From positions 3,348,001-3,412,000 of the forward strand of contig JAPNXP010000002.1 in the NCBI GenBank assembly GCA_028753945.1: a stretch of DNA of 64,000 bases, in the 5' to 3' direction. Numbering within the stretch: position 1 is the first letter of the stretch; each line of letters starts with the position of its first letter. A program made the translations under genes and the position numbers. This stretch comes from Hexactinellida sp. DTS-2022. Lineage: Eukaryota > Porifera > Hexactinellida. Positions 2,731-46,035 of this stretch are shown one piece after another. Under the pieces are notes generated by a model. The model was not told the DNA's origin, made no database searches, and was given only the letters and a program-made list of their open reading frames with translations.

Positions 2731-4082
2731 TACTTTAATTTATAAGTTTTCGCTCACTCGGTGTTTATATGAAGGCCTAACATTAAATTGAGAAATGGCT
2801 TATACTGCCTGACCATGATATACAGTCTGCTTACCCAATGCTTGCGTTGTTATTTGAATATTTCTAAAGTTGCTGGTTATTAATTGTGCGAGAGATCATA
2901 CACTTTCCAAATTAGCCAACTGATCAATAGAACCTTTCAAAAGTAGTCGATAACATAGGACTATGATCCAGAAATTAGTTAAATTAACTTTACTAATACG
3001 TCCAAGAAAACAAAATAATCTCCTTATTAGGCAGAATATGTTAACACTAAATCTTAATAGAAGTCCACCATCTTACGTTATTAAATTAGAGACGAAATGA
3101 ATATTCGAAATGAAACCAAGTAATTATCCAGGATCGCGACACGCTCCTTTGGAGTATGATTAGGAAAATAATTGATTAGGAGCGGGAAAATTTGGATTCC
3201 TAGCCTAAACTGTAACATTAATTTGTTATTTAGGCGTATGAAATTGGATCAAACCAGGATTAGGAGCATATTTACAAATGGCATTGAATGAAACGAATAT
3301 TCGAAATGCAACGAATGCATTTTCGAATATTCGATCGTTGAGATGGCAAATAGTCCAGCCGCTTACAACAATAATCATGCATTTTTACATAGAATTTTCA
3401 GACTTTGTAGGTTTGTTCTTTCATGCAAATAGTGTATTTTTGGATATACTAGTGCCAACTCCAAATTCCAATGTGTCGGCCACAATTGACAACTTAAGGG
3501 ACACATTTTGAAGCTGTTAGAACTCATCTAACTACCTCAAATCAAGTCCAATCCAATTTCTATGCCGATATTCGTAATCAACATTAAATTTTGCGTCATT
3601 TAAGTGGTCACCTGAGACATTTTTTCCTTGACGACGCTGGAATGTTGTAGGAATTTAACAACATTCCAATCTCAAATTTTTTCTAAGCCTATCGAGTGAC
3701 ACCTTGTTCGACTCCACTCAGCTTCCTGAAGCTAGTTAGACACATGTGGACCCTCTCAAAAGTCATTTGATGCAATTATACTGTTCTGACATTTGTTCCG
3801 GGTGCAAAATGGTTCTCTTCGGTACCATTTTGTCATCAATTGTTCATTTAACAAATTTGTTCCGGGATGTTAATCATTTCTATGGGTTTGTCTATTCCAT
3901 AGCAAATTCGTTCCGGCTTAATTTATACCAGTAATCACACTTAGACGGGTTCCTTATGCGACACTTAAGTAACATTTATGTAGTCACCACCCTTGCTTAG
4001 TAACATTATATTAAAAACCATGCATCCTCGGCTTCTGGGAATTAGTAAATTTGTGTACTATCCTACGTACTAATTGAATTAA

Positions 4083-4955
4083 GGTTCAGGTATACTCTAG
4101 AGCACTTCTACCAAAACTATTTACCCGAATTAATTAAATTTTTACAGCGGATTTACTTCATCTTCTAACCGGCAAAAATGCAATAATATTCGATCTTGGT
4201 AACTCAGTGAAAAATATTTTTTCTAGAAAATCGTATTTTGCGGAACGGATAGGTTTTACCTGCTAATGATTAGGAGTAGATTGTTGCTGCATTGCATTAA
4301 GAAACTCCTAAACTATCATATGAGTGCAAGAATTCTTTTAATCACGTATGAATCAAATTTTTCATCAATAAATGTGGACATCACTTTTTTCATCATCAAT
4401 AAATTAAATAAAAATAAAAATAAAAGTTAAAAATGAAATCGCTGCACTCATATGATAGAACTAATTGAGATCTGTCCAAAACCGTTGAGATTTTGTATCT
4501 AGGTGGTATATGAGTCATAATATGACTTCCGCAATGGCAATAATTGTGTTTGGAGATAGCGAGGTTTGAAAAAAAGTGTCCCCTATGGCAGTGGCTTAGG
4601 TAGAGGACACTAAAAAGTCTGTATCATTGAGGGTTTTCAATGTTCTTCCATAATATTTGAAATTAAGATGCGATATATGCTGTTCTATCCAAATATAAGA
4701 TAAAACCTATATGTGGCAATGTCCCGAAATTATCAAGTTTCCATGGTATACTGCAACCGGCAACCAAAACCAGAACCCAAATATTTCTTTCAAAACTCGA
4801 AGTGAGTCAAACTGGAGAAATAATTGGAATTTTTCTTTGAAATTTCGTCAAAGTCCACATGGGTATCCACACAATCCGAAAATGCAATAAAAACGATATT
4901 TACCATAGTTTGGGGTTTATCGAAATTTTGGGATTTTGTAGAGTATACCTGAACC
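4083..4955 (+). mobile_element. TTAA-flanked MITE, family GGTTCAGG, copy 1
   Basis: Begins GGTTCAGGTATACTCTAGAG and ends with the complement TAGAGTATACCTGAACC, with TTAA on each side (4079-4082 and 4956-4959). A TTAA target is characteristic of piggyBac-type elements, but no transposase is present, so the superfamily is inferred. A near-identical copy in the other orientation is at 44476-45349, and a much older relative lies around 27060-27715. Confidence 0.88.
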
Positions 4956-4959
4956 TTAA

Positions 4960-5657
4960 GGTTCAGGTATACTCTAGAGCACTTCTACCAAAAATATTTA
5001 CCTCATTTACTTGAAATTTTTACTGCGGATTTGAATCATCCTTCTATTTGCAAAAATGCAATAATATTTCAATGACAAGTAACTGGGAAATTTTAGGTTT
5101 TCAAATTTTACTCATTTGTGTAAGAGATTTTTTAGTAATAATGAACCTTACAAAAGTAAATACTGTTTAAATGCGTTTATCTATATCTTGTTTATCCTGC
5201 ATCGTCTGGGATTGTTCAAATTTAATATATTTTTAATTTTCTTGATTATTACGTGATGTCAACTTTTTAATCGAAATTTTCCTATTAAAAATCCGCAAAG
5301 CTCTGCAAATATTTCTAATTTAATAAATCGCAAACGTTACAGGATGGATCTAGACGAGATCTATCCGAAACCGTTGAGATTTCGATTCTACGTGCAAAAC
5401 TGAAAAAGTTTCTTATCTACACAAATCTGAATATGTTAGTTTTGCGATAGCGGGTTTAAAAAAAAAAAATTACATCAATTATTCCTAGATTGAGGTGACC
5501 AAAGTGTGTTAAACTGGAAAAATAATAGGAATTCTTCTTAGAAATCTCTTGAGAGTACTTATTGGTATCAATACAATCCAAAAATGCAATAAAAGAGAGA
5601 TAGACAATGATTTGGATTTTATCTAAATTTTCGAATTTTGTAGAGTATACCTGAACC
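4960..5657 (+). mobile_element. TTAA-flanked MITE, family GGTTCAGG, copy 2 (tandem)
   Basis: Same terminal repeats as the element just before it, same orientation, and the two share the single TTAA at 4956-4959; the far TTAA is 5658-5661. The interior differs from copy 1 and belongs to the subfamily seen at 45627-46030. The long open frame at 5456-5752 is non-coding by context. Confidence 0.87.
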
Positions 5658-5700
5658 TTAACCTTAGAAATAGACCTTATAGTCTCAGGATTTCGAATTA

Positions 5701-24711: not shown

Positions 24712-25515
24712 TTTATTAAATATTTAGCCACACATCAACATGAACTACCGTCCAGGCGAGGAGAAGTAGCACACTTTGGTTTAACCAAAATTTGTTTTGT
24801 ATATTTATTATTGAGTCGCACATCAACAGGCAGTACTGTCCAGGAGGAGGAAAAGAGTGTTCACTTATTGTATTATTTGTCTTAGCACACTTTGGTTTGC
24901 TTAAATTTGTGAAATTTATTAAATATTGAGCCACACATTAACAGGCAGTACCGTCCAGGCGGAGGAGCAGAGTGTTCACTTAGTGTATTGCTTGTCTTAG
25001 AACACTTTGGTTTAACTAAAATTTGTTATATTATTAAATATTGAGCCACACATCAACAGGAACCACCGTCCAGACGGAGGAGCAGAGTGTTCACTTAGTG
25101 TATTGCTTGTTTGCACACTTTGGTTTAAGGCCAAATTTCCCCGGTGTTTTCCTATAGCCCGACTGATTGTAGTTGATTTTATATGTTTAACTAAAATTTG
25201 TTTTATTTATTAAATATTGAGCCACACATCAACAGGCAGTACTGTCCAGGAGGAGGAGCAGAGTGTTCACTTAGTGTATTGCTTGTCTAAGCACACTTTG
25301 GTTTAGCTTAAATTTGTTTTATTTATTAAATATTGAGCCACACATCAACAGGAACTACCGTCCAGGCGGAGGAGCAGAGTGTTCACTTAGTGTATTGCTT
25401 GTCTTAGCACACTTTGGTTTAACTAAAATTTGTTTAATTTATTAAATATTGAGTCACACATCAATAGGCAGTACTGTCCAGGAGGAGGAGCAGAGTGTTC
25501 ACTTAGTGTATTTCG
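24712..25515. repeat. ~117-bp tandem array (first block)
   Basis: Seven units built on TTTATTAAATATTGAGCCAC, ACATCAACAGGCAGTACCG and TCCAGGCGGAGGAGCAGAGT. Core positions near 24727, 24814, 24930, 25045, 25218, 25335 and 25451. Unit lengths vary because of small deletions and a ~57-bp extra piece at ~25131. Confidence 0.9.
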
Positions 25516-26420
25516 AGGCTATTTCACGGTTAATAGGAAGAAAAAATTTCAATATCCAATATACAATATATAAAGTCCGAAAATACCGTATTTACTCGAA
25601 TAGTAGCCCAGGCGATTATTGTTTTTTACTCCATTTTTCGACCAATAATTTTGAGCAATTTTCTAGATTATCACATTTTATTACAATTTAATTATGATAA
25701 TCGGTTGATAATCGTATTGTGAGTTATATTAGATGTAAATGTTCACTCCGGGTAGCAATAATAAATTTTTATTTGCTACTTTAGGGGGGCAATTATTGGA
25801 GGTAGGCGATTATTCGAATAGAGGCTACTATTCGAATAAATACGGTATGTCAAGATACGAATCCGAAAAAAAATTCAGAAAATTTCTCCATTGAGGTCAC
25901 TTTTTGGAAAAAACAAAAAATATTATTAAATTTTTTTTTTTCTTCACAAATGTTGCTGTTTTTGACTAATTTGAAATATTTAGATAAAACATAAAAATAA
26001 TATATTTGAAATAAAGACACTTTTTACCAAATAAATTCCCGAAAAATATACATTTTTGGAATGGACTTACATTGTAAAAAGGCGGATAAGAACAAGTAGT
26101 AAATACGTTCCTCTCAAAATTTCAAATGTAATGAAGTTTTATTGAGAAATATTTTTTTTAGAACAAAAATATGTCTATTTTTTAACAAAAAATATTCATT
26201 ATTGAATTTATATAATTTTAATTAGAAAATCAAAAATCTAAATGGGCCAAATGTTTCTAAATAAAGTAAGGATCATTTCATAATTGATGTTACTATTCGA
26301 AAAAATAATTTTGATAGTGTATTTTCCATACTTGGCTAGTATGAATCAGTATAGTATAGAAATTTGATTAAGCTATAACCGAGGATATATGAATTCGCAA
26401 CTTCTAGTATTAAGGATATT
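25516..26420 (+). repeat. Duplicated unit A
   Basis: Follows the last array unit (TTTCGAGGCTATTTCACGGT) and ends near CGCAACTTCTAGTATTAA. The same sequence recurs as unit B at 26706-26920 plus 38966-39645, which is split by the 12-kb insertion. Unit A is therefore the natural empty-site control (CTAATTTGAAATATTTAGAT then AAAACATAAA, ~25968-25992). Confidence 0.9.
25586..25845. mobile_element. 260-bp TA MITE, family CCGTATTTACTCG, in unit A
   Basis: Ends CCGTATTTACTCGAATAGTA and ATTCGAATAAATACGG between TA dinucleotides. Unit B lacks it at the matching point (26768-26790), where a single TA remains. Confidence 0.93.
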
Positions 26421-26504
26421 TACTAGATAGGTATAGAGCAAATTAATGGCTATTTCAACTTTCTCAAATTCGAATGTTGAAAATTCACTAAGTGTCCCCC
26501 TTAA

Positions 26505-26705
26505 ATTTGTTTTATTTATTAAATATTTAGCCACACATCAACAGGCACTACCGTCAAGGCGGAGGAGCAGAGTGTTCACTTAGTGTATTGCTTGTCTTAG
26601 CACACTTTAGTTAAACCAAAATTTGTTTTATATATTTATTATTGAGCCACACATCAACGGGCAGTACTGTCCAGGAGGAGGAGCAGAGTGTTCACTTAGT
26701 GTATT
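26505..26705. repeat. ~117-bp tandem array (second block)
   Basis: Two further units of the 24712-25515 array (cores near 26529 and 26645), leading into unit B as the first block leads into unit A. Confidence 0.88.
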
Positions 26706-28223
26706 TCGGGGCTATTTCACGGTTAATAGGAAGAAAAAATTTCAATATCCAATATACAATAGATAAAGTCCGAAAATATGTCAAGAAAACGAATCCGAAA
26801 AAAAATTCAGAAAATTTCACCTTTGAGGTCACTTTTTGGAAAAAACAAAAAAAATATTATTAAAAAAAAAAAAATTCTTCACAAATGTTGCTGTTTTTGA
26901 CTAATTTGAAATATTCAGATCAGTGGTTCTTAACCGGTGGGGAATCACCCACTAGTGGGGAATTGAGGATCCTCAGGTGGGGAATGGAGCTTCAGGCTAA
27001 AAAGTTTACAAATCATTAACAGTAGTAAGGTTGCTTTATACCTTTAAGCACTTTTTCTACAGTTTTTTGCAGATTAGAAAGATCTTTTTTGTTTTAGATT
27101 CCTAGCGGCGAGATATATGCAAAAATGCAAAAATATTCGACCTAGGTAACACTGATTAAATTTTAAATTTTATAAAAACACACTTTTTGGAACACACAAG
27201 TTTTTTCCTCTTAATGATTAAGACTTGTTTCCTGTTGTATTACATAGAGAAGCTTCTAATCTATCATATGAATGTACAACTTCTTTTGATTACTTATGAG
27301 TCCAATTTTTCATCAATAACAGTGGACATCACTTTTTTATGATTAAGAAATCTAATAAAATTAGAAAGAAATGTTACTAATGAAATCTCTACATTGATAT
27401 GATATAACTAATTGAGAGCTGTCCAAAACCGTTGAGATTTTGTTTCTAGGTTGTATATGAGGCAAAAAGTGTCTCCCAAAACGACAAAAAGTTTGTTCCG
27501 AGGTAGCGGGGTTTGAAAGAATAACCCCCCCAAGGAAGTGGCTCAGGTGGAGGGCACTAAAAAGTCGATATCAATGAAAGTTTTCAATATTTTGCTATGT
27601 TATTTGGAATTGATATGCGGCATAGGCTGTTCTATCCAAAAATAACATAAAACCGATATGTGGCTGATTACCCGAAAGTGGAAATTTTTGTGGTATACCC
27701 CTACCTATAGCCAGTAATGGTAAATATTTTTTTTTTATAATAAAATCAAAATTAATATTCAATTGATTTAAAGTTGATTTACTATTTGAAAATGGTGAAA
27801 CCTATTTTAATCGTAGTTATTTCAACGTAATATTACAAAGTATACTTACTGCGAAATTCTCAATTGAATACCTATTATATAATTTGAGTTATGTTCATTC
27901 AAATCAATGAATATAATTTCCCAAAAAATCAAATAAATCAAATTTTCCTAGCCTGACTACAACACTCCAGTATACTTTCCAGGAACAAAATACATTGTAT
28001 CCATAAATAATTATAACCTCACAACTAATAAGAAGTTGATTATAACATAGAATGCAACATACATTCTATGCATAAATATTTCTAAACTGAAATTGCATAG
28101 AGGTCAACGCCACTGCCATCTCAAATTCGCCTCCGCCACCGTCCGCCTCCGCCACCACCGCCTCCTTGTTTAGGATTTATCTCCGCCACCAGAGGTAGCA
28201 TCCCCCTGCTAGACACAGGAGGA

Positions 28224-28453
28224 TCAGGGGATGCTAACCCCAAGGGCTATGGCAGCCTCCCGGAAGCTGCTGAGCTCTTTCCGGGCCTGCTCGCTCTGAT
28301 CTAAATATAAAGTATTGTGAGTGTGTAAAGGAAATCTCCATAGCTATAGTGAGTGAAATTACCTCTATACTGGGTGGCTTGGAGCCGGGACAGCCACAAC
28401 TGACATCGATAGTTGTACACGGCCTCCTCAAGAAGTATTATTGCAGTAGACAT
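28224..28453 (-). CDS. Small two-exon gene, 55 aa, function unknown
   Basis: Exons 28363-28453 and 28224-28300 flank a 62-bp intron (28301-28362; GTAATT...TATTTAG), and the frame is kept across it. The product starts MSTAIILLEEAVYNYRCQLW, passes through LSRLQATQYR, and ends in a charged amphipathic helix, SEQARKELSSFREAAIALG then VSIP. It could form a short coiled coil. No known family recognised. The second exon and stop context are clean. A tiny glycine/arginine-rich frame (28121-28201) lies just downstream on the same strand. It sits 0.4 kb downstream of the MULE gene's stop, inside the 12-kb element; the spliced model is inferred from sequence only. Confidence 0.45.
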
Positions 28454-28874
28454 GCTAATTGTTGTAGTGGGTATAACATTTCATTATTGTACAGAATAAA
28501 TGGTGACCGATTGTCTCAATTATTGGATCAGAGTGTATCTTTCCTATTTCTATAAAGGAAAGAAATATTCCATCATTTCCAAGGCAATTTTCACTATTTT
28601 TTTGTAGTTTTTTTGTTTTTTGTGTATTTTTTTGTAGTTTTTTTAGTTTTTTGTTCAACAATACATGCTACATAAATAATATAACAAACATAACTAATAG
28701 TTTCCGTACACATTCCGGTGCAATGTAATGTAACTAAGTTGTAGAATTAGGTTTAGCTTCTTCCAAACATACAAAAAACTAACAAAAGTTACAATACATA
28801 TAGGTTGAGACTAAGTATTATAAATTGTATAACAAATAATAACTTATAAACATACAAATAAAAAGTTTTAGTGA
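28454..28874. other. 3' flank of the MULE-like gene
   Basis: AT-rich, with T-rich runs (TTTTTTGTAGTTTTTTT, 28593-28645) on the plus strand. No gene. Confidence 0.4.
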
Positions 28875-31470
28875 CTAACAACAATTACATAGGGGGCATA
28901 TCCACAAATCATCTTCTCCGACATCTACAGCTACAACATTCATACTCCTCAAACAATTATTATGATGCCAACCATCACAGATATCACAACATAACCAGGC
29001 TACACTTACACTAATATCTTTACCAATACTACTACCCGCCTTGTACAATATCCCACTGTCTTCGCTCCCTCCACATATTTTACATTTTATGTCCATATCC
29101 CGTGGCACAGTTGCTGTTTGGGAATAGGCCCCGCTCTTATAGGTAGCTCCACGCTTCCGGGAGCGCTTTGCTTGTTTTAGGGACCACCTACGCTTAGTAT
29201 TATTTGCACATCTTAAACTATTTGTAATTCTCTCATTATCGAACTCTTTTACTAAATTATCTATTGAAATATAACCGTTCAATCCTAAAATATCGATGAT
29301 TTTTTGAATCCCAGCTATCCCCTCGTTGAAACGAAGAATTGATAAACTACAACCTAATTTCATCAAACTCAATTCTATTGGCTTAGTTTTACTAATACAG
29401 TTCCAAATCATCCCATGAAGGTTCTCATTCAAATTTGAGGTATTACCGCTCTGAACCTTTTCCAAAAATGACAGCGCAAAATATGGTGCTAAAATCTCTA
29501 AAACACGATCCCTACAGGCTAAACTGATGCACCTGGGATGTTTTGGAATGGTATCTCCTACAACTACCGCTTTCTGATACATGCAAAATGAATCAACACC
29601 CTTCTCACAATATTTATGCATTTCATGACAATTCTCATCATTAGCAGCTAAATGATAAACAATTCCCAACAATGCTTCACGTAATTCAATTAGATTACCA
29701 CCAATTCTACTTTTTACAACAAAGCCATAAAGTGATGTTATTTTATCAATTATATTATCAGCTAAAAGATTTATTTCAATAGATATATCCCCTAATTCTT
29801 CACTATCACCCCAATTATCTCTCCCTTTTTTCAAATCCCTAAGCGTAGATGGCCGATATAGATCCCTAACAGATCTTTTCTGCGCTTCTGTTTTACATTG
29901 CCCCAATTCGTGTTGCAATAGTGTCTTTTGAGAAGCAATAAATTATTTTTGTTTTTCAACTAAATGTATTCGTATACGCTTCTGAACATGGCTCAAACAT
30001 TCCTCCCTCCTTATTGTTATATTAAATTCCCCATAAATGTTATTTTCAGCTAATATATTGATACTTTTATCATCACCATCCGCAATAACTGTGGAGTAAA
30101 TTAATTTTTGATCTATTGACTTTCGAAAAATAACTGGTGCTAATTTAGATTCGAGCGCAACTGAACTATATTTGCCATATTCTTTGGCCTGGCAACTAGA
30201 TTCATGCATTTCTTTCCATATTTTATATTCAGCTAATTCTAATCGTTTGTCCCTAAGAGCTTGTTGCTTCTCAATACACAATTTGCAACTATTACAGGCA
30301 ATTTCATAGCTTAGTACTTTCCCAGTTTCCACGGATATAGCAGAAGCAACGCAGTATCTAGAGAATCCACCGCCCGCTTTGCCACCCCTTTTTTGATAGG
30401 CTCCGTCATAAGAAACAGTAACCTCTAAAAATTCTGAATCTGCCGTATTGTGGTTTTCTCTCAACTCTAAGGCTGCCCGCATACAGCTTGCTTGTGCTAC
30501 ATCCGTGGAAACCTTAGATAAATATGCTTGAACTTTGTAAAATGCTCTATTAGATAAAGTTGATGGCAAACCAATGAAAGTATTTACGAAATCAAGTCCT
30601 GATTTACCAATTCCCACTAATCTACCTTACAAAATTTCTAACAAGTTATGACCAAACTTTATTGTATTATCTGTGTCAGAATGGGGGGTACTATTCTGAG
30701 GGAGAGTAAAGAAAGGAGTAGCTGCAAAACATTGATCACAAACAATATAATAATGCAAGGCCAGTCCATGATTATAAGACGTTCGATAGAAAGTTAGCCG
30801 ACCTTTACGACAAAACTTACACATTGAAATTACATCTAGTGCTCCCTCTAAAATTCCTATATTCAAAAGTGCATTCCCTTCTACCCCTACATAAATTTAT
30901 TTTTTGACCCCTAGATTTGCCGACCTCAAAAATCTCCAGTTCCTCAAGTGGAAGATCTGGCAAAATGATTGGGGAGATTTTTGATTGGGCAGTTGTAAGT
31001 TTAGGCTGACTTTCAGATAACGAAGTTTCTTGATGTTCTTGGCTATCCAAAAATGGTATGGTCTCGTTTTGGGTCTCCACAGAAATTCTGGGGACCTTAG
31101 CGGATAGCTCAAGAACATCAAGAGACTCCGTTACACTTACTTGGCTGCTATTTGTAGGAGGGGAGCATACTCAGGAGCTAAGGCCACCTTTTCGCGCTTT
31201 ATGTGTCCACGGAATTTATGAGGACGCTTTTTAGAGCCAACAACAACTCTACGTTTTTCTGTTTTTATTATGGGAGTTATAGGAGCTGAAAACACAAATT
31301 TACCTCCCGAAGTTCCTCCAAAATCAAAACCTTTAGGCACCTCAATCTCTTCCTCAGAACTCGAACTGAGATCCTTTCGAGGATGTCCCGGGTGTTCCTC
31401 CACACCACCAATAATCAACAAAACAATTACAACCGCGAGCACCAGAAGTGTGGATATTCCCCACAAATAT
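28875..31470 (-). pseudogene. Phantom/MULE-like transposase with C-terminal PHD finger, decayed
   Basis: Reads N- to C-terminally on the minus strand. An acidic, lysine-rich first exon ends ...YAPLLQIAAK and joins ISVETQNETIPF across a 53-bp intron (31088-31140, GTAAGT...CCCAG) in frame. A zinc-binding module has CKFC and CDQC (30740-30830). The Mutator-like core has VSYDGAYQKRGG (first Asp), VIADGDDKS (second Asp), ECLSHVQKR, CEKGVDSF and NENLHGMIW (third acidic residue). A PHD-type finger closes the protein: CKICGG, CCDICDGWHHNNC, ICPLC (28878-29090). These motifs match the animal Mutator-like (Phantom) family. Lesions: a frame change near 30890 in an A-run and TAA codons at 30627-30629 and 29943-29945, the frame continuing after each. 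The 5' start is uncertain; the hydrophobic stretch LVLAVVIVLLII near 31430 may not be translated. Confidence 0.78.
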
Positions 31471-31562
31471 CCAATGTCTGCCCCAGTGAAACAGTGGCGC
31501 CCAAGTTTCCAAAATGTCGGGATGGGGACTCACTTGATTTGTGCAAATATTTAATAGGAAAA

Positions 31563-31708
31563 CACGGGCGTCGCACGGCTCTGAAAACTCTCCGGCCAAA
31601 CAGTTAAAGTGGTCCGGCCATAACCGGACCCTCCTATATAATATAGTAGAATAAATTAACACTGGTCCGGCCATTGCCGGACCAGCCGGACCGCGTGCTA
31701 CGCCTATG
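31563..31708 (-). mobile_element. GC-rich hAT-like MITE
   Basis: Ends CACGGGCGTCGCACGG and CGTGCTACGCCTATG are imperfect inverted repeats enclosing several GGTCCGGCCA motifs. A diverged reversed relative is at 38281-38434. No convincing target duplication on either. Confidence 0.55.
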
Positions 31709-32242
31709 TTATATATAACAGCATAACCACAATTCTCTAAATTTAAAATTTAAATTAGATATCAATAGTTTAAAATAGCCTAATAATGAATCCATACTCG
31801 TCAATATAAATTCTAGCTATTTACTCTATTTGGCGGAAGTTCTATTATAAGTGCAAGTTTAACTCTACTATATTATTAGAAGTAATTATGCCGCACAGAA
31901 TTTACGATATAGATTAAATTCTTTATTCTATAGATTTTCAAATAATAACTCGATATTATGAGAATTTTGCATTATATAATTATTAACTCTATAACTTTGT
32001 ATTAAAGTTGAAAATCGACACGGCATAATCACAAGAACAACTAATAAGGATCATTTTTTAGGGAAAGATTTCGCTCCACGACTTATGCATTTTGAGATAT
32101 GCTAAGATATTCAAAGGTCACTCCCAGGTAATTTTGCGGATTATTTTTTACAAAATGTCTGCGATTTTGACCTCTAGTGGCGTCAAAAGGTTAAAGAAAT
32201 GTCAGAATTAAATTTTTCTTTCGGATTAGGATAGATAGCATC
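31709..32242. other. Gene-free AT-rich stretch
   Basis: No gene or repeat recognised. Confidence 0.4.
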
Positions 32243-32820
32243 TTACAGTATATTCAGAAATAGTAATAGATTAAATGTTGCCATAGTTGATTTCCTGAAA
32301 TCGACATTCCATCTCCTTAATTGTGTTTGTAAGTAATCGCAGATTTCCTCCATTCGACAGATTCTCGGGATGGGAATCCATACATTCCCATCCCAGGAAA
32401 AATCTCGAGATGGGGCCCCCATCCCAGGTAGGCAAGTTGGGCGCCAGTGTGAAATATCAATTTTCGGGGCACTAGTCTTGGAAGACAGCCTCACTCTTCC
32501 TGCCCACACACCAATACAGCCTCTCCAGGCTTCTAGGGAAATCATTTCCAAATTCAAGAGAATAGAAAAATTAGAAATAAATTGAAAAACAAAAGAAATA
32601 AAGAACAAGCAGTAAGAACGAAGTTTTGAATAACAATTGAGTTTAGTGAAAGTATTATTTATATACACAGTAGTGCTATAATGTCATAATGGCAATGCGG
32701 GTGGTCTTATTCGTTACAAATATAGATGCACTTATTGCGTCTGAAGTGATAAGAATAGAATCATTATGGCATAATGAAATCTGCGCATGCGCAGATTTCA
32801 AAATAATAAACAGTGCATCA
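32243..32820 (-). mobile_element. LTR retroelement fossil: one LTR, primer-binding site and short internal start
   Basis: On the minus strand a ~373-bp LTR-like block (32820 to 32448) begins TG and ends CA, has a TATATAAATA box (~32655), a GCGCATGCGC palindrome near its start, and is followed by TGGCGCCCAAC (32446-32436), a usual tRNA-primer site. About 190 bp of internal sequence follows, then similarity ends. It is a truncated fossil; the second LTR is not seen. Family not assignable from so little. Confidence 0.4.
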
Positions 32821-33050
32821 AAGTTGACAAACAAACAGTATGAAAGGAACCATTATTATTGTAGGTAATTCACATCTGGGATTAGTTATTGAAGGGGTAA
32901 ATTTACCAGATAAAGGAATACCGACTAAGTTATTCTTTTATATGCATAAAATTTAGTTTACTCGTTGGGTTATTACGTATAAATAGATTCAATTATTGAA
33001 TAACAGTAGATTTTTGGAATATTATATTATAATAAATAATTGTTTGTATT

Positions 33051-33353
33051 ATGACATCCGCAATACGTACCGACATATTGTATATGAATGGCTGTTTGAG
33101 GAGGGCGCCTTCAACAAGAATACGCAATATATTACAAAATGTTATATTGTCTCTGCAAAGGGAAAAGCAGAGGATTCAAAAAGCTCTCCGCGCGGCACGG
33201 AAGATGAGGAGGATAAATGCGAGAAGTTGTAAGCGTCTCCCTAGATTTTATATCAATGACCTTCGCAGAAGACACGCACACGCTATGTGGGAAGGTAATG
33301 CCCAACTTCCGCAAGATGAGGCCCTGGAGTTCTACCAGATGTGTAAACAATAA
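33051..33353 (+). CDS. 100-aa basic helical protein, function unknown
   Basis: A complete open frame from ATG 33051 to TAA 33353. Residues ~25-65 are strongly basic and helical (SLQREKQRIQKALRAARKM then RRINARSCKRLPRF), and the C-terminal part reads RRRHAHAMWEGNAQL. It could bind nucleic acid or form a coiled coil; I recognise no family. A TATA-like GTATAAATAG lies ~70 bp upstream and an AATAAA at ~33501 downstream, which together make a compact transcription unit plausible. It lies between the LTR fossil and the P element within the 12-kb insertion. Overlapping frames on both strands are shadows. Codon bias does not settle whether it is real. Confidence 0.45.
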   Translation: MTSAIRTDILYMNGCLRRAPSTRIRNILQNVILSLQREKQRIQKALRAARKMRRINARSCKRLPRFYINDLRRRHAHAMWEGNAQLPQDEALEFYQMCKQ

Positions 33354-33747
33354 TAATATTAATAGTTAGATTTGTAGTAATAATAGTATTAGTAATGTAT
33401 TTAGTAAATAATAGTCCACTATACTATAGTATAGTGGCATATGAATAATAATAACACTTATATGATTTATACGCATAGACGGCATAGTCACAAACTCACA
33501 ATAAAGGAGTTTTTCAATTGAGGGAAAATCGATTATATTTTTATTGTCACAAGTTTCTGAGTTTCCAATTTGAAAAGAAATTGTTGAGAAGGATTGTGTT
33601 TGATTACGTAAGTGTTGTAGCTAGTCAATTTCGATAACTCTGTTTGACCCAATGAAGGATAAGTTGTAATTCCTTTATTGGTCTCAGAAACATTATTCGC
33701 GTGACTTGAATGCTCCAATGAATTTTTCTGAAGTAAAGGTCAGAAAA

Positions 33748-36315
33748 TAAGTTATAACATAGCCTACTATACATAAGGCCTCACAGTAAAATATGATATC
33801 TGGACCAGGGATGCGGTCGCCGCCGGGAAACGAAATTGCAATTTTTTATCAAATTTAGTGACATTTCGCTTGAAAACAGATATTCCGGTGACTAGCAACT
33901 GTAATAAAGTAATACGTATACTCTCATTATACCATTAATCTTATTACTTTGTGAGTTTGAATAACATACACAATACAAAACTACTAGAAAACCTCTATTT
34001 AGGTAGATATAGTTACTTCACATAAGACAACTAACTCGTATCTAAATAATCAGGAATCGAACTTTTTCAATTTCCGCTTTTCTAATCCCTTTAAAGTAAG
34101 GCTCGAATTGTAATTCTTGACAAGATTTGCAATTAGACAATTTGCTCACTCCGAACGAGACTTGATAGAATGGTTGAACCTTTCACATTACAAGAAGGAC
34201 AAGTAGTTCTCCAACCTTCAAAACCACTATCAAGACCAGTTAGGGAGCCAAAAGCAAGTGTTACTAAAATCTTTCTAGTTTGACCTTCTATCAACAGGGA
34301 CATAAGTTCACTATTACTTTGGATTATAGTTAGAATCTTCCAAACAATAATTAACGATTCCAATGCAAGCTCTGAAGGATACTTTAGACCACCACGATCA
34401 GAAAGCTGCAGTAGTTGGTACCGGAATTCGAAGGATTCCTGTTAGGAACACAAGGATGAGGTACACATGTTTCAAGCTTACCAACAGGAGAGAATAGTTT
34501 GAATAACTTGACGTTAAGAGGATAGTTATCTGTTGAGATTACATCCACACATAAACCACAAGTTTCGATATCTTTAATACAAGCGAGTATGATGGGGAAT
34601 ATCTCCTCAGCGGAAAGAGAGGCACATGGTAATAGACGAACTATAGTAGACCATTTTTTCTGGAGACTTGATACCATAATCTTTATTGGATCTTCTGGGC
34701 TTAGACTAGAGCCATATATCTTGCCTCCTTTATATGTGACATCAGATTTTACGTGAATTTCGTCCATTTGCATAACGATATGTTTCTCAGCTTCAGTGAA
34801 AGAATTTGTCGCTTGCTTGAGGAAAGGAAAGAATTCACACTCAAGTCCGAATGAAGAATACAACTTCTCCAAAGTGTTGACATGAGGCAGAGATAGACAA
34901 GCCATTTGTTGAAGATACTTATAACATGCTGGTGAAATTAAATGTGCTTTAAGTGCCATAAGCTGTGTGAGGATGTTGTACCTCCGCCTGTTTTTGGGTA
35001 CAATACTGTTTTCAAGCTGACATTGGATGAAATGAAGCCTGGATATTTCGGGGGAATCAGTTAGTTAATAAGTTATCTCTAATTCACCATTAGATAAAAG
35101 TACTTTGTTAATGAGTAGTTGGATATTGTCCTTCGCTAAAGATAAAGTCTCATTAACGGTCTTTGAAACAGATTCAGTGGACAGAACAGGACGAGGGGAT
35201 ATAGAAATCTCACAGAGAATTGATTCAAGGTGTCGTATATCGCTGATTGAGCAAATTGGAATTGGTAAAATTTCTCCATTACGATAAGCTCTAACTGACA
35301 AATCGAAGGACACTAATATATGGGTGTTGACAATGATATTGTGTTCTGTCAGTAGAGGTAGCATATAAATTAGACTATGATCATCTGGGTACCATAAAGA
35401 CCATGTTTTAGGTAGGGAAATCAAAGGTAACTTAGCTTGGGTATCCTGGAAACAATTGATCTGATATTTATCTTTCTCTTCGCTCTCAGATGCCAGGCTA
35501 AGTGTTAATGCTTCATTGAACATTTCCTCATCTTTTGATGTAGGTGACACACATCTGCGCTATTTGGAGCTAATAGATTGAGAACAGATTGAAGGGTGTC
35601 CTGGTAGAAAAACTGGAACGGCACCATCTTTTAGCTTTGGGTTGACTCTTGGAATTTCACGATAAGTACCATCTCCGTTTGGAACTTTGTGAATACTCAA
35701 CATCCTCCTGGCGAAAATGATTTACACTCACGTAAACCCCCTTGAATGATAGTAAATCGTCTCTCCGAAGAACCTGAAGCCATCTGTGTCTTAGGTCATC
35801 TGGTTTCGTAGGTAGTTTAAAAACTGGGACACGGTGATCGTCGTTGTAGTTGATTTTGCATCCGAAAATGGCACAACTGTTGGGCATCGTTAGAAAAAAA
35901 CTAATAAATTAATGGTAGTAGCATAAATCAAATTATAAGGTTAATTTTTAATAGGGAAATGGGCTCTGTAGGGGTATTGTACTAATGAGAATGAGATAAA
36001 TAAATAACAAGATGGATTATTTAGCTCTAGAGTGTAATAAAAGTATAAATTTGCTATGTATGTTATATACCATATACCACTTATTTATATTATGGGTGAA
36101 TAACAACACAAAATTCTAAAATTAGCTTTGTGGTTAATATGCATATTTTTCGATATATATCGACTGCTAGTCACCGGAATATCTGTTTTCAAGCGGAATG
36201 TCACTAAATTTGATAAAAAATTGCAATTTCGTTTCCCGGCGGCGACCGCATCCCTGGTCCAGATTTCATATTTTACTCTGAGGCCTTATGTATAGTAGGC
36301 TATGGTTATAACTTA
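33748..36315 (-). mobile_element. P-element-like transposon, ~2.57 kb, internally deleted
   Basis: Terminal inverted repeats of ~150 bp: 33748-33897 (TAAGTTATAACATAGCCTAC, ...GGACCAGGGATGCGGTCGCC...) against 36167-36315, with only a few mismatches. Between them lies a minus-strand THAP/P transposase relic. Flanking octamers (TCAGAAAA-like and CCAAATAG) do not match, so the 8-bp duplication expected of P elements is lost or the outer boundary is slightly off. Confidence 0.82.
34133..35887 (-). pseudogene. P-element / THAP9-like transposase, broken and deleted
   Basis: Starts at ATG 35887 with a THAP zinc finger: MPNSCAIFGC, then VPVFKLPTKPDDLRHRWLQV, and FRQEDVEYS; after a frame change the expected HKVPNGDGTYREIPRVNPKL follows. 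Then come a serine-rich linker (35550-35065) and the helix-turn and RNase-H-like region: MALKAHLISPACYKYLQQMA, QMDEIHVKSDVTYKGGKIYG (catalytic Asp in MDEIHVK) and VDVISTDNYPLNVKLFKL (second Asp region). At ~34440 the text jumps from CVPHPCVPNR to a C-terminal piece (RGGLKYPSELALESLIIVW ... stop 34133), so the middle of the catalytic domain and the insertion domain are missing. In-frame stop and frame changes are also present (after VEYS near 35670, in ISSK* near 35560, near 35060). It cannot encode active enzyme. Confidence 0.85.
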
Positions 36316-36476
36316 CCAAATAGTCAACTTAGAATCAATTTCTACTATGAGTGCTCACAAAAGGAAAACCTATTTAAAAATGCAATAAAACATAAATTGT
36401 TGATAAATGATATTTTTTCAAATTATCTATTGGTTAGTGGAACCATATTGTTTGTATACTGTTTTCAAAATTAGAC

Positions 36477-36814
36477 ATGACACGTCCTGCACCACCTAGC
36501 TATGATAGCTTGACACGTCCTCCGCCTCCGCCGCCTTCGGCATATGATGGGATTGATGGCATAAGTTGGAGCCGGTCAATGACTCGGCTCCACATTTCTT
36601 TGATGACATCAAAGAGTAAGTTCACACATTATAATTTACTTTACTGAAATCTTACAATTGTATAAATTTAGGAACTACATTGTACTGGTGGGAGGTCTCC
36701 AAGAAGATGGAGGCCCGAGCCAGGGCCTCCGAAAACCGGGAGACAGGTCTCCGCGAGGACCTGGAAAAGTCCGAGGAGAGGGCTATGGCCCTAGAAAGAA
36801 AAATTGAATTTTAG
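36477..36814 (+). CDS. Two-exon gene, 93 aa, proline-rich head and coiled-coil tail
   Basis: Exon 1 (36477-36615) begins MTRPAPPSYDSLTRPPPPPP and ends at GTAAGT; a 56-bp intron (36616-36671, ending ATTTAG) joins exon 2 (36672-36814) in phase. The head contains a PPSY motif, a form of the PPxY signal bound by WW domains (established motif; its use here is inference). The tail (SKKMEARARASENRETGLRE then DLEKSEERAMALERKI) is a clear amphipathic coiled-coil helix. No family recognised. Its architecture, a short two-exon gene ending in a coiled coil, echoes the 55-aa gene at 28224-28453, also inside the 12-kb insertion, but sequence similarity between them is weak. An upstream TATA-like element is not obvious. 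Confidence 0.48.
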
Positions 36815-37047
36815 AAATTTCTAGGGGCCATAACCCTCCCCATTATAACATTCTTCCTCACTTGTTGAGGAGAATTATTGTTGTGGAGGTTGGAGGAAAT
36901 AATGGAGGAGGAGGCAATAAGAAGGGGGAGACACGGAATATGTGAGGGAAATAATATGATATACCTTATAATTGACCAGTTGTAATATGCATATTATCTT
37001 TAGACCAAAAGGATTTAGTTCTGAAGCGGGTTTGACAAGTGTATATA
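36815..37047. other. Flank of the 93-aa gene
   Basis: Purine-rich sequence (GGAGGAAATAATGGAGGAGG) around 36890-36930; no separate gene supported. Confidence 0.35.
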
Positions 37048-37860
37048 ACTTGAAATATAACTTGATTTTTCCTAGTAATTACAAGAGAGGCTCAGAGGTT
37101 ATTATTGAAGCCAAAAATGCAATATTATCAAATTCATTAGGATTCATATTATATCGAATTTCTAGTGATCGATCGTACACTGCAACGTCAAGGTTGTGAC
37201 AAAAGTGTCTGTATTATGGAATATAATTTGTATTTTCCTAGCAATTTCGTTAGAGTTCTCAGAGGTAAACATAGATTCCGAAAATGCAATATAACCTAAA
37301 TTGATTTTGTTTCGATATTTTATCGTATTATTTCAGTGTTCAATCGTGTACAAGCAACCTGAGTGATGGTGACATAAGGGTCTAAAACTTGAAATTCAAT
37401 CTGTATTTTACCTAGTAAATTCGTGAGAGTGCACAGAGGTAAACATAGATTCGGAAATGCAATATAAGCAACATTGATTAGGGTTGATATTTTCGAATTT
37501 TTTCAGTGTTCGATCGTGTACTGTAACATAAAGTGATGGTCACATAAGAGTCAATAACTTGAAATTTAATTTGTATTTCACCTAGAAATTTCGTGTGAGT
37601 GATCAGAAGTAACCATAGATGTCGGAAATGCAATAAAATCAAAATTGATTAGGGTTGATATTTTCTCGATTTTTAGTGTTCAATCGTGTACTTCAACTTC
37701 AGGGGACGGTGACATAATAGTCTATAACTTGAAATAAAATTTGTATTTTACCTAGAAAATTCGTGAGAGTGATTAGAAGTAACCATAGAGGTCGAAAATG
37801 CAATAAAATCAAAATTGATTAGGATTGATATTTTATCGATTTTTTTCGGAAATTCTTAAA
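37048..37860. repeat. ~170-bp tandem array, about five units
   Basis: ACTTGAAAT anchors at 37048, 37387, 37557 and 37727, with a diverged unit at ~37225, give a period of 170 bp. Each unit has TTTACCTAG, AGAGGTAACCATAGAT-like, AATGCAATA and TTCAATCGTGTAC. The unit is longer than the minisatellites elsewhere in the window and its later units are the most alike. Confidence 0.85.
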
Positions 37861-38280
37861 TTATACTTGTACTAATTTTTAGACTTCTAGGTTGAACTCG
37901 TACTTATATTAAACAGGTATTATCTGCTTCCAGACCATAACTGCAGTGTTGTCCAGACAAATTCTGAACTTCTATTGGGTTCTAGCGCCAAAAATAATTC
38001 GCACGCTCGCTACGCTCGCCCGTTGTTCATTATAAACATTGATAGGAGAAATAGTTTGAGATTCCCTTGACATATCAAATATTAAAAAACAAAATGCTCA
38101 ATCAAAATTTAGTGTGGAAATCACGAATCAATATGATTCTATAGTACTGATTTGAGCACCTCTGGGAACTCCGTGCGAACGGAGTTACCTGGGGTGCTCA
38201 AATCCATATAGAATCAAATTGAAATATCGCCTTGACTTGCTTAGAAAATTTATATTGCCATTTTCAAGAAATATCCTTTG
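37861..38280. other. Gene-free stretch with a fold-back at 38130-38220
   Basis: ATATGATTCTATAGTACTGA and TTTGAGCACC...GGAACTCCGT pair with ACGGAGTTACC...GGTGCTCAAA and CCATATAGAATCA around GCGA, a ~42-bp-arm hairpin. Also GCACGCTCGCTACGCTCGCC near 38003. Confidence 0.6.
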
Positions 38281-38434
38281 CATAGGAATAACACGCTGTT
38301 CTGCTGGTCCGGCTATGGTCGGAGTAGTTTTCATTTGCTTAACTATGTTATATTATAGGATGGTCTAGTTTGGCTGGACTACAGAAAATCTTTGGCCGGA
38401 GAATTTCGAAAGCCTTATTTTCCCTTGTGTGAAA
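38281..38434 (+). mobile_element. Diverged relative of the 31563-31708 MITE
   Basis: Shares CTGGTCCGGC, TTTGGCCGGAGA and overall order with the reverse complement of 31563-31708. Ends eroded. Confidence 0.5.
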
Positions 38435-38457
38435 AAAAATGCTCAATGAACATATAG

Positions 38458-38604
38458 CAGGGCTGTAAATAAATAATTTATATTTTCTTAAATCAAATCA
38501 TTTGAATTTTCAAATAATATCAAATCAATTGCCACTCAATATTCCCGTGAATTAATTCAAATTAATTCAAATATTTGAAATATTTGGCTTGATTTACAAC
38601 CCTG
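38458..38604. mobile_element. 147-bp hAT MITE
   Basis: Ends CAGGGCTGTAAATAAAT and TTGATTTACAACCCTG; flanks ACATATAG and ATATATAG (7 of 8). Confidence 0.82.
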
Positions 38605-38638
38605 ATATATAGTTATGTATCTATAAGTGTCACTGGAC

Positions 38639-38796
38639 CAGAGGCTGCGCGTGGGTGGAACCAGGTGGGGCCTTTGTCCCACCTAAATTAGGAGTGCCCC
38701 ACCTCATTGATGTGAGTGTGCCCCAGTTTAACAGCCTGTGCCCCACCTTTGACGCAATTGTGCCCCACCAGTGGCTGCTGGCTAGCGCCGCCACTG
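38639..38796. mobile_element. 158-bp GC-rich hAT MITE
   Basis: Ends CAGAGGCTGCGCG and GCTAGCGCCGCCACTG; flanks CACTGGAC and CACTGAAC (7 of 8). Contains repeated GTGCCCCACCT motifs. Confidence 0.8.
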
Positions 38797-38965
38797 CACT
38801 GAACTAATAACAATAATATTAAAAGGGATATTATTAAGTGTACCATAAAGTATATGAACACAATTTACTTCATAAATTATGTTCATATTTAGGTGGCGAA
38901 TAGAGTAACAAGGTATTCCAAAGTGGGAAATGGCAGAGAAAAGGTTAAGAACCACTGATTCAGAT

Positions 38966-39645
38966 AAAACATAAAAATAATATACCGTATTTACTCGAAT
39001 AGTAGCCTAGGCGATTATTGTTTTTACTCCATTTTTCGACCTATAATTTTGAACAATTTTCTAGAATATCACATTATATTACAATTTAGTTATGATAATC
39101 GGTTGATAATCGTATTGTGAGTTATATTAGATGTTAATGTTTACTCCGTTTGGCAGTAATAAATTGTTATTTGCAACTTTAGGGGGGCAATTATTGGAGA
39201 CAGGCGATTATTCGAATAGAGGCTACTATTCGAATAAATACGGTATTTGAAATATAGACACTTTTTACCAAATAAATTCACGAAAAATATAAATTTTTGG
39301 AATGGACTTACATTGTAAAAAAGGCGGATAATAACAAGTATTAAAATATGTTCCTCTCAAAATTTCAAATGTAATGAAGTTTTATTGAGAAATAATTTTT
39401 TTAGACAAAAATATGTCTATTTTTTAAAAAAAAAATATTCACTATAAAATTTTAATTAGAAAATCAAAAATCTAAATGGGCCAAATGTTTCTAAATAGAG
39501 TGAGGATCATTTCATAATTGATGTTACTATTCGAAAAAATAATTTTGATAGTGTATTTTCCATACTTGGCTAGTATGAATCAGTATAGTATAGAAATTTG
39601 ATTAAGCTAAAACCGAGGATATATGAATTCGCAACTTCTAGTATT
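38966..39645 (+). repeat. Duplicated unit B, part beyond the 12-kb insertion
   Basis: Continues 26706-26920; together they match unit A (25516-26420). Ends at the same AACTTCTAGTATTAA. Confidence 0.9.
38985..39243. mobile_element. 259-bp TA MITE, family CCGTATTTACTCG, in unit B
   Basis: Same family as 25586-25845 but at a different position of the duplicated unit; unit A has a single intact TA there (~26001). Confidence 0.93.
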
Positions 39646-44471: not shown

Positions 44472-44475
44472 TTAA

Positions 44476-45349
44476 GGTTCAGGTATACTCTACAAAATCC
44501 CAAAATTTCGATAAACCCCAAACTATGGTAAATCTCGTTTTTATTGGATTTTCGGATTGTGTGGATACCCATGTGGACTTTGACGAAATTTCAAAGAAAA
44601 ATTCCAATTATTTCTCCAGTTTGACTCACTTCGAGTTTTGAAAGAAATATTGGGGTTCTGCTTTTGGTTGCCGGTTGCAGTATACCATGGAAACTTGATA
44701 ATTTCGGGACATTGCCACATATAGGTTTTATCTTATATTTGGATAGAACAGCATATATCGCATCTTAATTTCAAATATTATGGAAGAATATTGAAAACTC
44801 TCAATGATACAGACTTTTTAGTGTCCTCTACCTAAGCCACTGCCATAGGGGACACTTTTTTTCAAACCTCGCTATCTCCAAACACAATTATTGCCATTGC
44901 GGAAGTCATATTATGACTCATATACCACCTAGAAACAAAATCTCAACGGTTTTGGACAGATCTCAATTAGTTCTATCATATGAGTGTAGCGATTTCATTT
45001 GTAACTTTTATTTTTATTTTTATTTAATTTATTGATGATGAAAAAAGTGATGTCCACATTTATTGATGAAAAATTTGACTCATACGTGATTAAAAGAATT
45101 CTTGCACTCATATGATAGTTTAGGAGTTTCTTAATGCAATGCAGCAACAATCTACTCCTAATCATTAGCAGGAAAAAACCTATCCGTTCCGCAAAATACG
45201 ATTTTCTAGAAAAAATATTTTTCAATGAGTTACCTAGTTCGAATATTATTGCATTTTTGCCGGTTAGAAGATGAAGTAAATCCGCTGTAAAAATTTAATT
45301 AATTCGGGTAAATAGTTTTGATAGAAGTGCTCTAGAGTATACCTGAACC
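44476..45349 (-). mobile_element. TTAA-flanked MITE, family GGTTCAGG, copy 3
   Basis: TTAA at 44472-44475 and 45350-45353; near-identical reverse complement of 4083-4955, so a recent relative. The open frame at 44354-44641 crosses its edge and is spurious. Confidence 0.92.
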
Positions 45350-45419
45350 TTAAAGAGTCAACTTGGCCTAAACCCAGTTATGGATTTGACAAATCCATCT
45401 ACTCCACAGTTCTGCTCAA

Positions 45420-45596
45420 CTCTAGGTTTTGACTATACGTATGTGTATGATTTGTTGTGTAGGTGCTAACTAATTGTTTTAACCAAACATATAGGAGTTC
45501 TCTTAGAGTCCCGCATATCGGGGCACTCCCTCGTATCGGGACGCTGAGCGCTTGGACGGAGGTGCCCCGATACGCGGTGTTCCACTGTATCCTAAT
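45420..45596. mobile_element. Tigger/pogo end repeat, copy 1
   Basis: GGTGCCCCGATACGCGGTGT then TCCACTG and TA; the ~170 bp before it match 47020-47169. A CAGTGGAAC-type pogo end; no opposite end found. Confidence 0.6.
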
Positions 45597-45626
45597 ATGA
45601 TGCTGGAATAGAAACAAATCGTTTAA

Positions 45627-46035
45627 GGTTCAGGTATACTCTACAAATTTCGAATATTTTGATAAAATCCAAATCATTGTCTATTTCTCTTTTATTGCAT
45701 TTTGGGATTGTATTGATACCAATGAGTACTCTCAAGAGATTTCTAAGAAAAATTCCTATTATTTTTCCAGTTTGACACACTTTGGTCACCTCAATTTAGT
45801 AATATTTGCTGTAATTTTTTTTTTCCAAAGCCGCTATCTCAAAACTAACATTTTCAGAATTGCGGAAGCAGTCTTTTTGTCAATTTTGGTAGTAGAATCA
45901 AAAACTCAACGGTTTCGGAGATATCTCGTGAAGATACAACTTTTCAGTGCTGCGATTTACCCTAATATGTATAGTTCATCTGTTTTTTGTATTTTGGATG
46001 AGGAAAATATTCATTTGAAAATCGACATAACATAA
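45627..46035 (-). mobile_element. TTAA-flanked MITE, family GGTTCAGG, copy 4 (truncated)
   Basis: TTAA 45623-45626 followed by GGTTCAGGTATACTCTACAA; follows the subfamily of 4960-5657 in reverse and fades out near 46035 without the second end. Confidence 0.75.

Follow-up and report, generated by a model that had tools for sequence, protein, structure and literature searches.

Copies of a hAT transposon enlarged by the insertion of other elements have been described for BuT2 in Drosophila (PMC3942097, in the accessible part of that paper). Kojima and Bao characterise the Kolobok superfamily by TTAA target duplications, 5'-RR/YY-3' termini and a C/DxxH motif (PMC9587614, also in its accessible part). 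Elements of these two kinds appear to meet in a 12-kb compound element at positions 26921-38957 of a 64,000-nucleotide stretch of DNA from the sponge Hexactinellida sp. DTS-2022 (C11:3348001-3412000; referred to here, at its full length, as the window). The compound has the ends of a hAT element and a gene-bearing interior. It is very probably an ordinary nest of transposons, whose cargo came by its own transposase and not by the hAT ends. Nesting is favoured over movement as a unit because the sibling pairs of hAT ends are short, the junctions between hAT and cargo are, among the candidates scored, found in full only at the window, and the cargo occurs elsewhere with ends of its own. The genome compared is the same assembly (112.4 Mb, 18 contigs); genome-wide sequence searches score the best candidates of longer lists, and the number scored is given with each result.

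The hAT ends are exact. CAGTGGTTCTTAACC stands at 26921-26935 on the forward strand and at 38943-38957 on the reverse strand, a perfect 15-bp terminal inverted repeat; at up to two mismatches it has four matches in the window against 0.07 expected. Directly outside both ends is a perfect 8-bp target duplication, ATTCAGAT, at 26913-26920 on the left and 38958-38965 on the right. (As an 8-mer it is not rare, with five occurrences against 5.08 expected, and its weight rests on its placement only.) A paralogous empty site is located in the window at 25978-25985, where it reads ATTTAGAT, one base off ATTCAGAT; the joined flanks of the hAT element align to it piecewise at 89.6-93.1% identity, the alignment of the right flank being broken by another repeat of ~265 bp. 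The original prediction, made from the letters of the window, had described these ends, the duplication and an empty site near 25975, and all three are borne out. A ~265-bp repeat with the start ACCGTATTTACTCGAATAGTAGCC is present in both flanks, at 38984-39247 and 25580-25853, at differing positions relative to the duplicated segment.

That prediction had also proposed searching the assembly for the two ends as a pair. For the left end, the query was the element's initial 200 bp (best 40 of 102 candidates scored): 33 rows match the hAT end, and seven that start at query positions 95-108 were dropped as members of the cargo family. For the right end, a query of the final 150 bp matched in 41 rows (best 40 of 47 candidates scored); 40 of these rows were used and one, a partial row of a copy already counted, was dropped. 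Ends on the same strand and no more than 30 kb apart were paired. Among these scored candidates there are 26 pairs. The window's measures 12,037 bp and the other 25 measure 1,022-1,925 bp by their matched pieces, one of them being 1,971 bp from end to end owing to a 726-bp insertion. Twelve distinct hAT loci were scanned, nine of them with both ends in the stretch examined, and all nine have perfect 8-bp duplications, each different. The family to which the window element belongs is therefore a short non-autonomous hAT of ~1.25 kb. The return of short copies only, among the scored candidates, favours the later nesting of cargo in an element of miniature inverted-repeat transposable element (MITE) size, the first of two alternatives that had been put forward. 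Six of the short copies match the window's hAT parts at 98.5, 97.9, 97.9, 97.8, 96.2 and 92.5% identity. Other hAT copies also carry insertions: the 726 bp already mentioned (C11:9979887), a Kolobok-type MITE inside C11:7330768-7332692, and ~1.1 kb in a copy on C18. One apparent precursor, a C12 hAT copy that has a Kolobok MITE nearby, was rejected, its hAT being uninterrupted and the MITE lying outside it.

Alignment to the short copies separates the hAT from what is inside it. The left 106 bp (26921-27026, forward strand) are 100% identical to positions 1-106 of the 1,022-bp copy on C17, whose alignment resumes at ~37854 and runs to 38957; hAT positions 107-146 (40 bp) are absent from the window. 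The right part (37856-38957, forward strand) resumes at TTAAATTATAC, hAT position 147. A 200-bp query spanning the left junction finds its full match at the window only (best 40 of 102 candidates), and the same is true of a right-junction query (best 40 of 64). In the latter search eight other cargo right ends match as far as the equivalent of base 37855, the match of a ninth ends nine bases before it, and hAT copies begin at 37854-37858. Of the 30 other hAT places matched by the right-junction query, 24 allow the distance from the left end to hAT position ~148 to be measured: 23 copies have 129-149 bp there and one has 308 bp, as against ~10.9 kb in the window. None of these 24 copies has cargo at that hAT position.

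The cargo (27027-37855, reverse strand) has relatives of full length at C11:9763399-9774676 and C11:5487779-5477208, ~98% identical to it in most pieces and 84-99% over 27025-28752. Over 1,333 bp the left flanks of these two copies share 99.8% identity, and their transposases are interrupted by the same pair of small MITEs. For these reasons they are judged to be one insertion that was duplicated, and their reading as two transpositions was rejected; the independent full-length loci are thus two, the duplicated insertion and the window. (The two MITE-like inserts, at 9769640-9769827 and 9770436-9770617 of C11 in the 9.77-Mb copy, are ~180-190 bp long, with CAGTGT-type ends and ~9-10 bp duplications.) Partial cargo is present at six more loci examined (C1:14.81 Mb, C11:5.07, 8.97 and 6.76 Mb, C12:4.12 Mb and C1:12.74 Mb), and a few further, weaker matches are listed in the genome. 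The copy at C1:14805444 (14.81 Mb), like that of the window, is without its right terminus. Complete ends of the family read TTAA-GGTTGC...GCAACC-TTAA. The TTAA is present on both sides at C11:5.48 Mb and on the right side in four more copies (C11:9.77, 8.97 and 6.76 Mb; C12:4.12 Mb); the left side of the 9.77-Mb copy reads GGTA, and the target site of the window copy is degraded. With the left 400 bp of the cargo as query (best 40 of 226 candidates), 29 of the 42 rows have one equal score, and five that were read out are identical over 689-691 bp; these matches therefore indicate that a young non-autonomous relative has the cargo's left end.

The original prediction had called the cargo transposase a MULE-PHD transposase, that is, one of a Mutator-like element (MULE). 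A transposase domain is indeed present, a Pfam search matching Mutator at 5e-28 and PHD at 4.6e-4, the latter short of its cut-off; the MULE identity was rejected on the TTAA target site and the termini. MULEs make target duplications of 9-11 bp. The cargo fits Kolobok, and not MULE, despite the name "Mutator" of the Pfam model. A C/DxxH motif between the second D and the last E also occurs in hAT, P, MuDR and Dada and is not diagnostic alone. The transposase (28875-31491, reverse strand) is broken in the window. Its DDE core with CxxH includes the Mutator domain, within 29943-30626, and is followed by a PHD-like C-terminus; the catalytic motifs, assigned by eye and not from an alignment with a reference Kolobok, are SYDGAYQKRG, VIADGDD, ECLSH and NENLHG. 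What looks like a separate small open reading frame (ORF) at 31137-31491 (reverse strand) is the N-terminal part of the transposase: in the C11:5.48-Mb copy it continues in one frame into the core, and a separate "gene A" was rejected for that reason. The first codons, MISLEAW..., are at 32449-32545 (reverse strand), continuous with the rest in the 5.48-Mb copy and severed in the window by a 957-bp insertion. The order of parts is thus the MISLEAW start, a hydrophobic stretch, a degenerate 2A-like GGVEEHPGP, the core and the PHD-like finger. The consensus for 2A is D(V/I)ExNPGP; copies here read GGVEEHPGP, GGVEVNPGL and similar, the D and mostly the N being different. In the C11:5.48-Mb copy, whose transposase is broken by its two small MITEs, the 5' part forms a single frame; the C1:14.81-Mb copy reads ISLEAW... 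in the transposase frame, with the M absent. Related transposases with open frames of 879 and 912 amino acids are found in the genome. A literature search found no paper on 2A-like ribosome skipping in the transposase of a DNA transposon, nor one on Kolobok combined with a PHD finger.

Two further insertions account for interruptions of the cargo. An inserted piece of 957 bp occupies 31492-32448, with inverted ends CAGTGGCGCCCAAG and CACTGGCGCCCAAG and a TGAAA duplication, and is absent from both full Kolobok copies. A P-superfamily element occupies 33758-36304 on the reverse strand; its 140-bp inverted ends (33758-33897 and 36165-36304) are 98% complementary and are flanked by a 7-bp duplication, GTTATAA. 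Target duplications of the P superfamily are 8 bp long. In both full Kolobok copies window base 33757 is joined directly to 36305, and 31491 to 32449; in the C11:9.77-Mb copy the target of each insertion is uninterrupted. The P element, which had been predicted, carries the Pfam domains THAP (5.8e-8) and TNP-like RNase H (4e-13). Over its first 643 bp, the part that was compared, five other copies are identical at 100% as rounded, with bit scores of 1145-1156 against the window's own 1160; because of this near-identity at five other places the P element family appears to have been recently active, and this element is probably the youngest layer of the nest. A long terminal repeat (LTR) fossil, also named in the prediction, was not seen in the window, in which no LTR-specific search was made.

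The layers suggest how the compound could have been built. A non-autonomous hAT of ~1.25 kb would have inserted at the site and made the ATTCAGAT duplication. A Kolobok-type transposon, with ~7.3 kb of its own here, would later have entered the hAT, most likely at the TTAA of hAT position 147, and the P element and the 957-bp piece would then have inserted in the Kolobok, giving the 10.8 kb now between the hAT parts. Losses at the edges would have removed the right terminal 17 bp of the Kolobok and the 40 bp of hAT beside its left end; they were caused, perhaps, by an event such as failed excision. We infer this order in time; the ages of the layers agree with it, as judged by nearest copies (98.5% for the hAT, ~98% for the Kolobok and ~100% over 643 bp for the P element). 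The window Kolobok is probably immobile, because its right terminus is gone.

The edges leave room for a variant that is compatible with nesting: the Kolobok may have been captured as an end-trimmed fragment in the repair of a break in the hAT, and not by transposition into TTAA. We regard this as possible though rather unlikely. Capture would account for the missing 40 bp of hAT and the missing 17-bp terminus. On the left, the junction reads GTAA (27025-27028) in place of the expected TTAA; on the right, the cut in the terminus falls at GGAAATTC, where two bases (TC) overlap, and the C1:14.81-Mb copy is cut within ~2 bases of the same place. Against capture, the cargo ends at 37855 with the TTAA of the hAT directly next to it, just as insertion at TTAA followed by small losses would leave it.

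Movement as a unit, the second alternative in the original prediction, is far less probable. Here the 12-kb composite would have formed at another locus and come to the present site whole, as a single hAT unit, with hAT transposase supplied in trans. The perfect ends and perfect 8-bp duplication would suit such a move, and transposase may be available, matches to the hAT dimerisation domain being numerous in the genome (best 150 of 638 candidates scored). The junctions, however, are in full at no other locus among the scored candidates, none of the 25 other end pairs is long, and no other measured hAT copy has cargo at the same hAT position; at other loci, moreover, the cargo is bounded by ends and a target site of its own. 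Several points nonetheless weigh against simple nesting. A composite that moved once as a unit after the arrival of the Kolobok is compatible with a single locus, and the scoring of best candidates may have missed long hAT copies. Seven left and 14 right hAT ends are unpaired among the scored rows. Four of these 21 were inspected. The first is part of a 1.25-kb copy, the next two have hAT matches of just 206 and 482 bp, and the fourth has an interruption of ~1.1 kb and runs to the edge of the stretch examined. Two cargo-family matches (C11:6171570 and C6:3009952), 88-89% identical, continue on the hAT side for ~11 bases beyond the left junction, an overrun taken for chance. Finally, with GTAA on the left, 40 bp of hAT gone and the right terminus gone, no intact textbook TTAA insertion is visible. 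That the two hAT ends come from separate insertions, an outcome the original prediction had named as one that would undo its reading, is hardly credible, since the same 8-bp duplication on both sides, collinearity with the short copies and the empty site mark them as ends of one element of one family.

With the nest of transposons as the preferred reading, the remaining content of the cargo can be assigned. The predicted satellite is a tandem array of 170-bp repeats (37037-37847, ~4.8 copies). Whole or partial, it is present in all seven other examined cargo copies that reach it, and it is the cargo's own subterminal repeat. As to the three small genes of the original prediction, for which no ORFs had been specified, two candidates, B and C, stand as accessory genes and another small ORF is the transposase N-terminus; a further possible gene, D (28090-28560, on the transposase strand, reverse), is an uncertain candidate ORF, decayed in the window. 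Gene B (33051-33353, forward strand) encodes a predicted helical, arginine-rich protein of 100 amino acids and has 18 homologous loci in the genome, the window included. Gene C has two exons on the forward strand, with limits set by eye (GTAAGT...TTTAG): the first (36477-36615) is proline-rich with a PPxY-like start, MTRPAPPSYDSL, and the second (36672-36869), which has a premature stop in the window copy, is coiled-coil-like with a hydrophobic C-terminus. Both exons are open in four of nine aligned copies (C11:9.77 and 5.48 Mb, which are one duplicated insertion, C12:4.12 Mb and C11:6.76 Mb); the other five have a stop or frameshift, which counts against function.

Gene B keeps company with the transposase. 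At 13 of its 18 loci (the two duplicated copies included) the opposite strand carries, no more than 11 kb away, a transposase match of at least 60% to the window's; four loci are without a transposase match within 13 kb, and one has only a distant match (46%, same strand, 12 kb). This pairing was computed on 34 of ~150 listed transposase rows, the rest being checked by eye for the five misses; among these, C11:8.97 Mb has other Kolobok pieces and C11:6814336 adjoins a Kolobok right end. The identities of transposase and gene B to those of the window go together at C11:5.07 Mb (94 and 86%) and 6.76 Mb (92 and 90%); at C1:14.81 Mb they are 95 and 44%, and at C11:13.85 Mb 97 and 39%. Between C11:5.48 Mb and C1:14.81 Mb, synonymous divergence (dS) in the N-terminal part of the transposase is 0.118 and non-synonymous divergence (dN) 0.05; for gene B dS is saturated and dN is 0.66. 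Because two genes of one element differ so much in depth of divergence, gene B would seem to have been swapped as a cassette, by recombination between element lineages. If so, its product would be a factor that changes quickly or is exchanged, serving perhaps to counter host silencing or to recognise the ends. Plant MULEs have anti-silencing systems with a protein matched to repeats. A matching of gene B to the 170-bp repeats was considered and is unsupported: the C1:14.81-Mb gene B is very different, and pieces of the repeat region of that copy still align (90.5% over 36305-37674 and 81% over 37203-37855).

Genes B and C have no Pfam match up to E 1, and the best match of gene B among PDB sequences is at E 0.47. 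A single-sequence structure model of gene B, of moderate confidence (predicted local distance difference test 73.6, predicted template modelling score 0.47), has 32 matches to PDB folds with E no higher than 10, of which none reaches 0.001. The 19 stretches of viral contigs that fit a gene B pattern encode no relative. Close copies of gene B have dN/dS of 0.45-1.07, which counts against function; purifying selection is seen at depth only, in one pair (c5/c3, 0.25, c3 being the C1:14.81-Mb copy) whose c5 member has an internal stop, dS being saturated in the other deep pairs. As a tentative proposal, which we would not back over its denial, the cargo may represent an undescribed Kolobok lineage that swaps gene B between copies and has two or more accessory genes, B itself and C, whose protein would be proline-rich, of PPxY type, coiled-coil and tail-anchored; "undescribed" is here a guess from literature searches on Kolobok, not on genes B and C.

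Other repeats in and around the window touch on these elements. A 115-bp tandem repeat adjoins the hAT (24767-25512 and 26491-26720), and the same satellite borders both duplicated Kolobok copies (C11:9.76 and 5.48 Mb) and, on its right, the C11:6.76-Mb copy; it may be a landing pad. Short stretches at 4079-5661 and 44472-45640 of the window are bounded by related ends, TTAAGGTTCAGGTATACT, and are perhaps further non-autonomous families of Kolobok type.

The firm boundaries of a hAT do not imply a mobile 12-kb cassette, and the comparison of sibling copies resolves the layers. Nesting itself is ordinary; what deserves further attention is the Kolobok family in the nest, with accessory genes unmatched in Pfam. 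Confirmation of these genes would add to the Kolobok superfamily another lineage with its own helper proteins, and if the exchange of gene B is true, near-identical transposase backgrounds would let one ask what the helper does and why it changed. Set beside known systems, the outer element resembles non-autonomous, MITE-like hATs in its short inverted ends, 8-bp duplications and many copies of similar length, and differs from these and from BuT2, as far as the accessible description of the latter goes, in the size of its insert, 10.8 kb in three layers. The cargo is like Mutator and MULEs in that its transposase matches Pfam Mutator (PF20700, 5e-28), and unlike them in its 4-bp target, TTAA. 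It resembles Kolobok, in the accessible part of the paper by Kojima and Bao, in its TTAA duplication, RR...YY termini (here GG...CC), DDE transposase with CxxH, and zinc fingers (seen by eye) after the first D and before the last E; relative to that account it differs in its PHD-like C-terminus, hydrophobic and degenerate 2A-like N-terminus and 170-bp subterminal repeats, and in having genes B and C where the accessories named there are KolX, DEDDh, lambda-exonuclease-like, His-Me and RecQ (PMC9587614).

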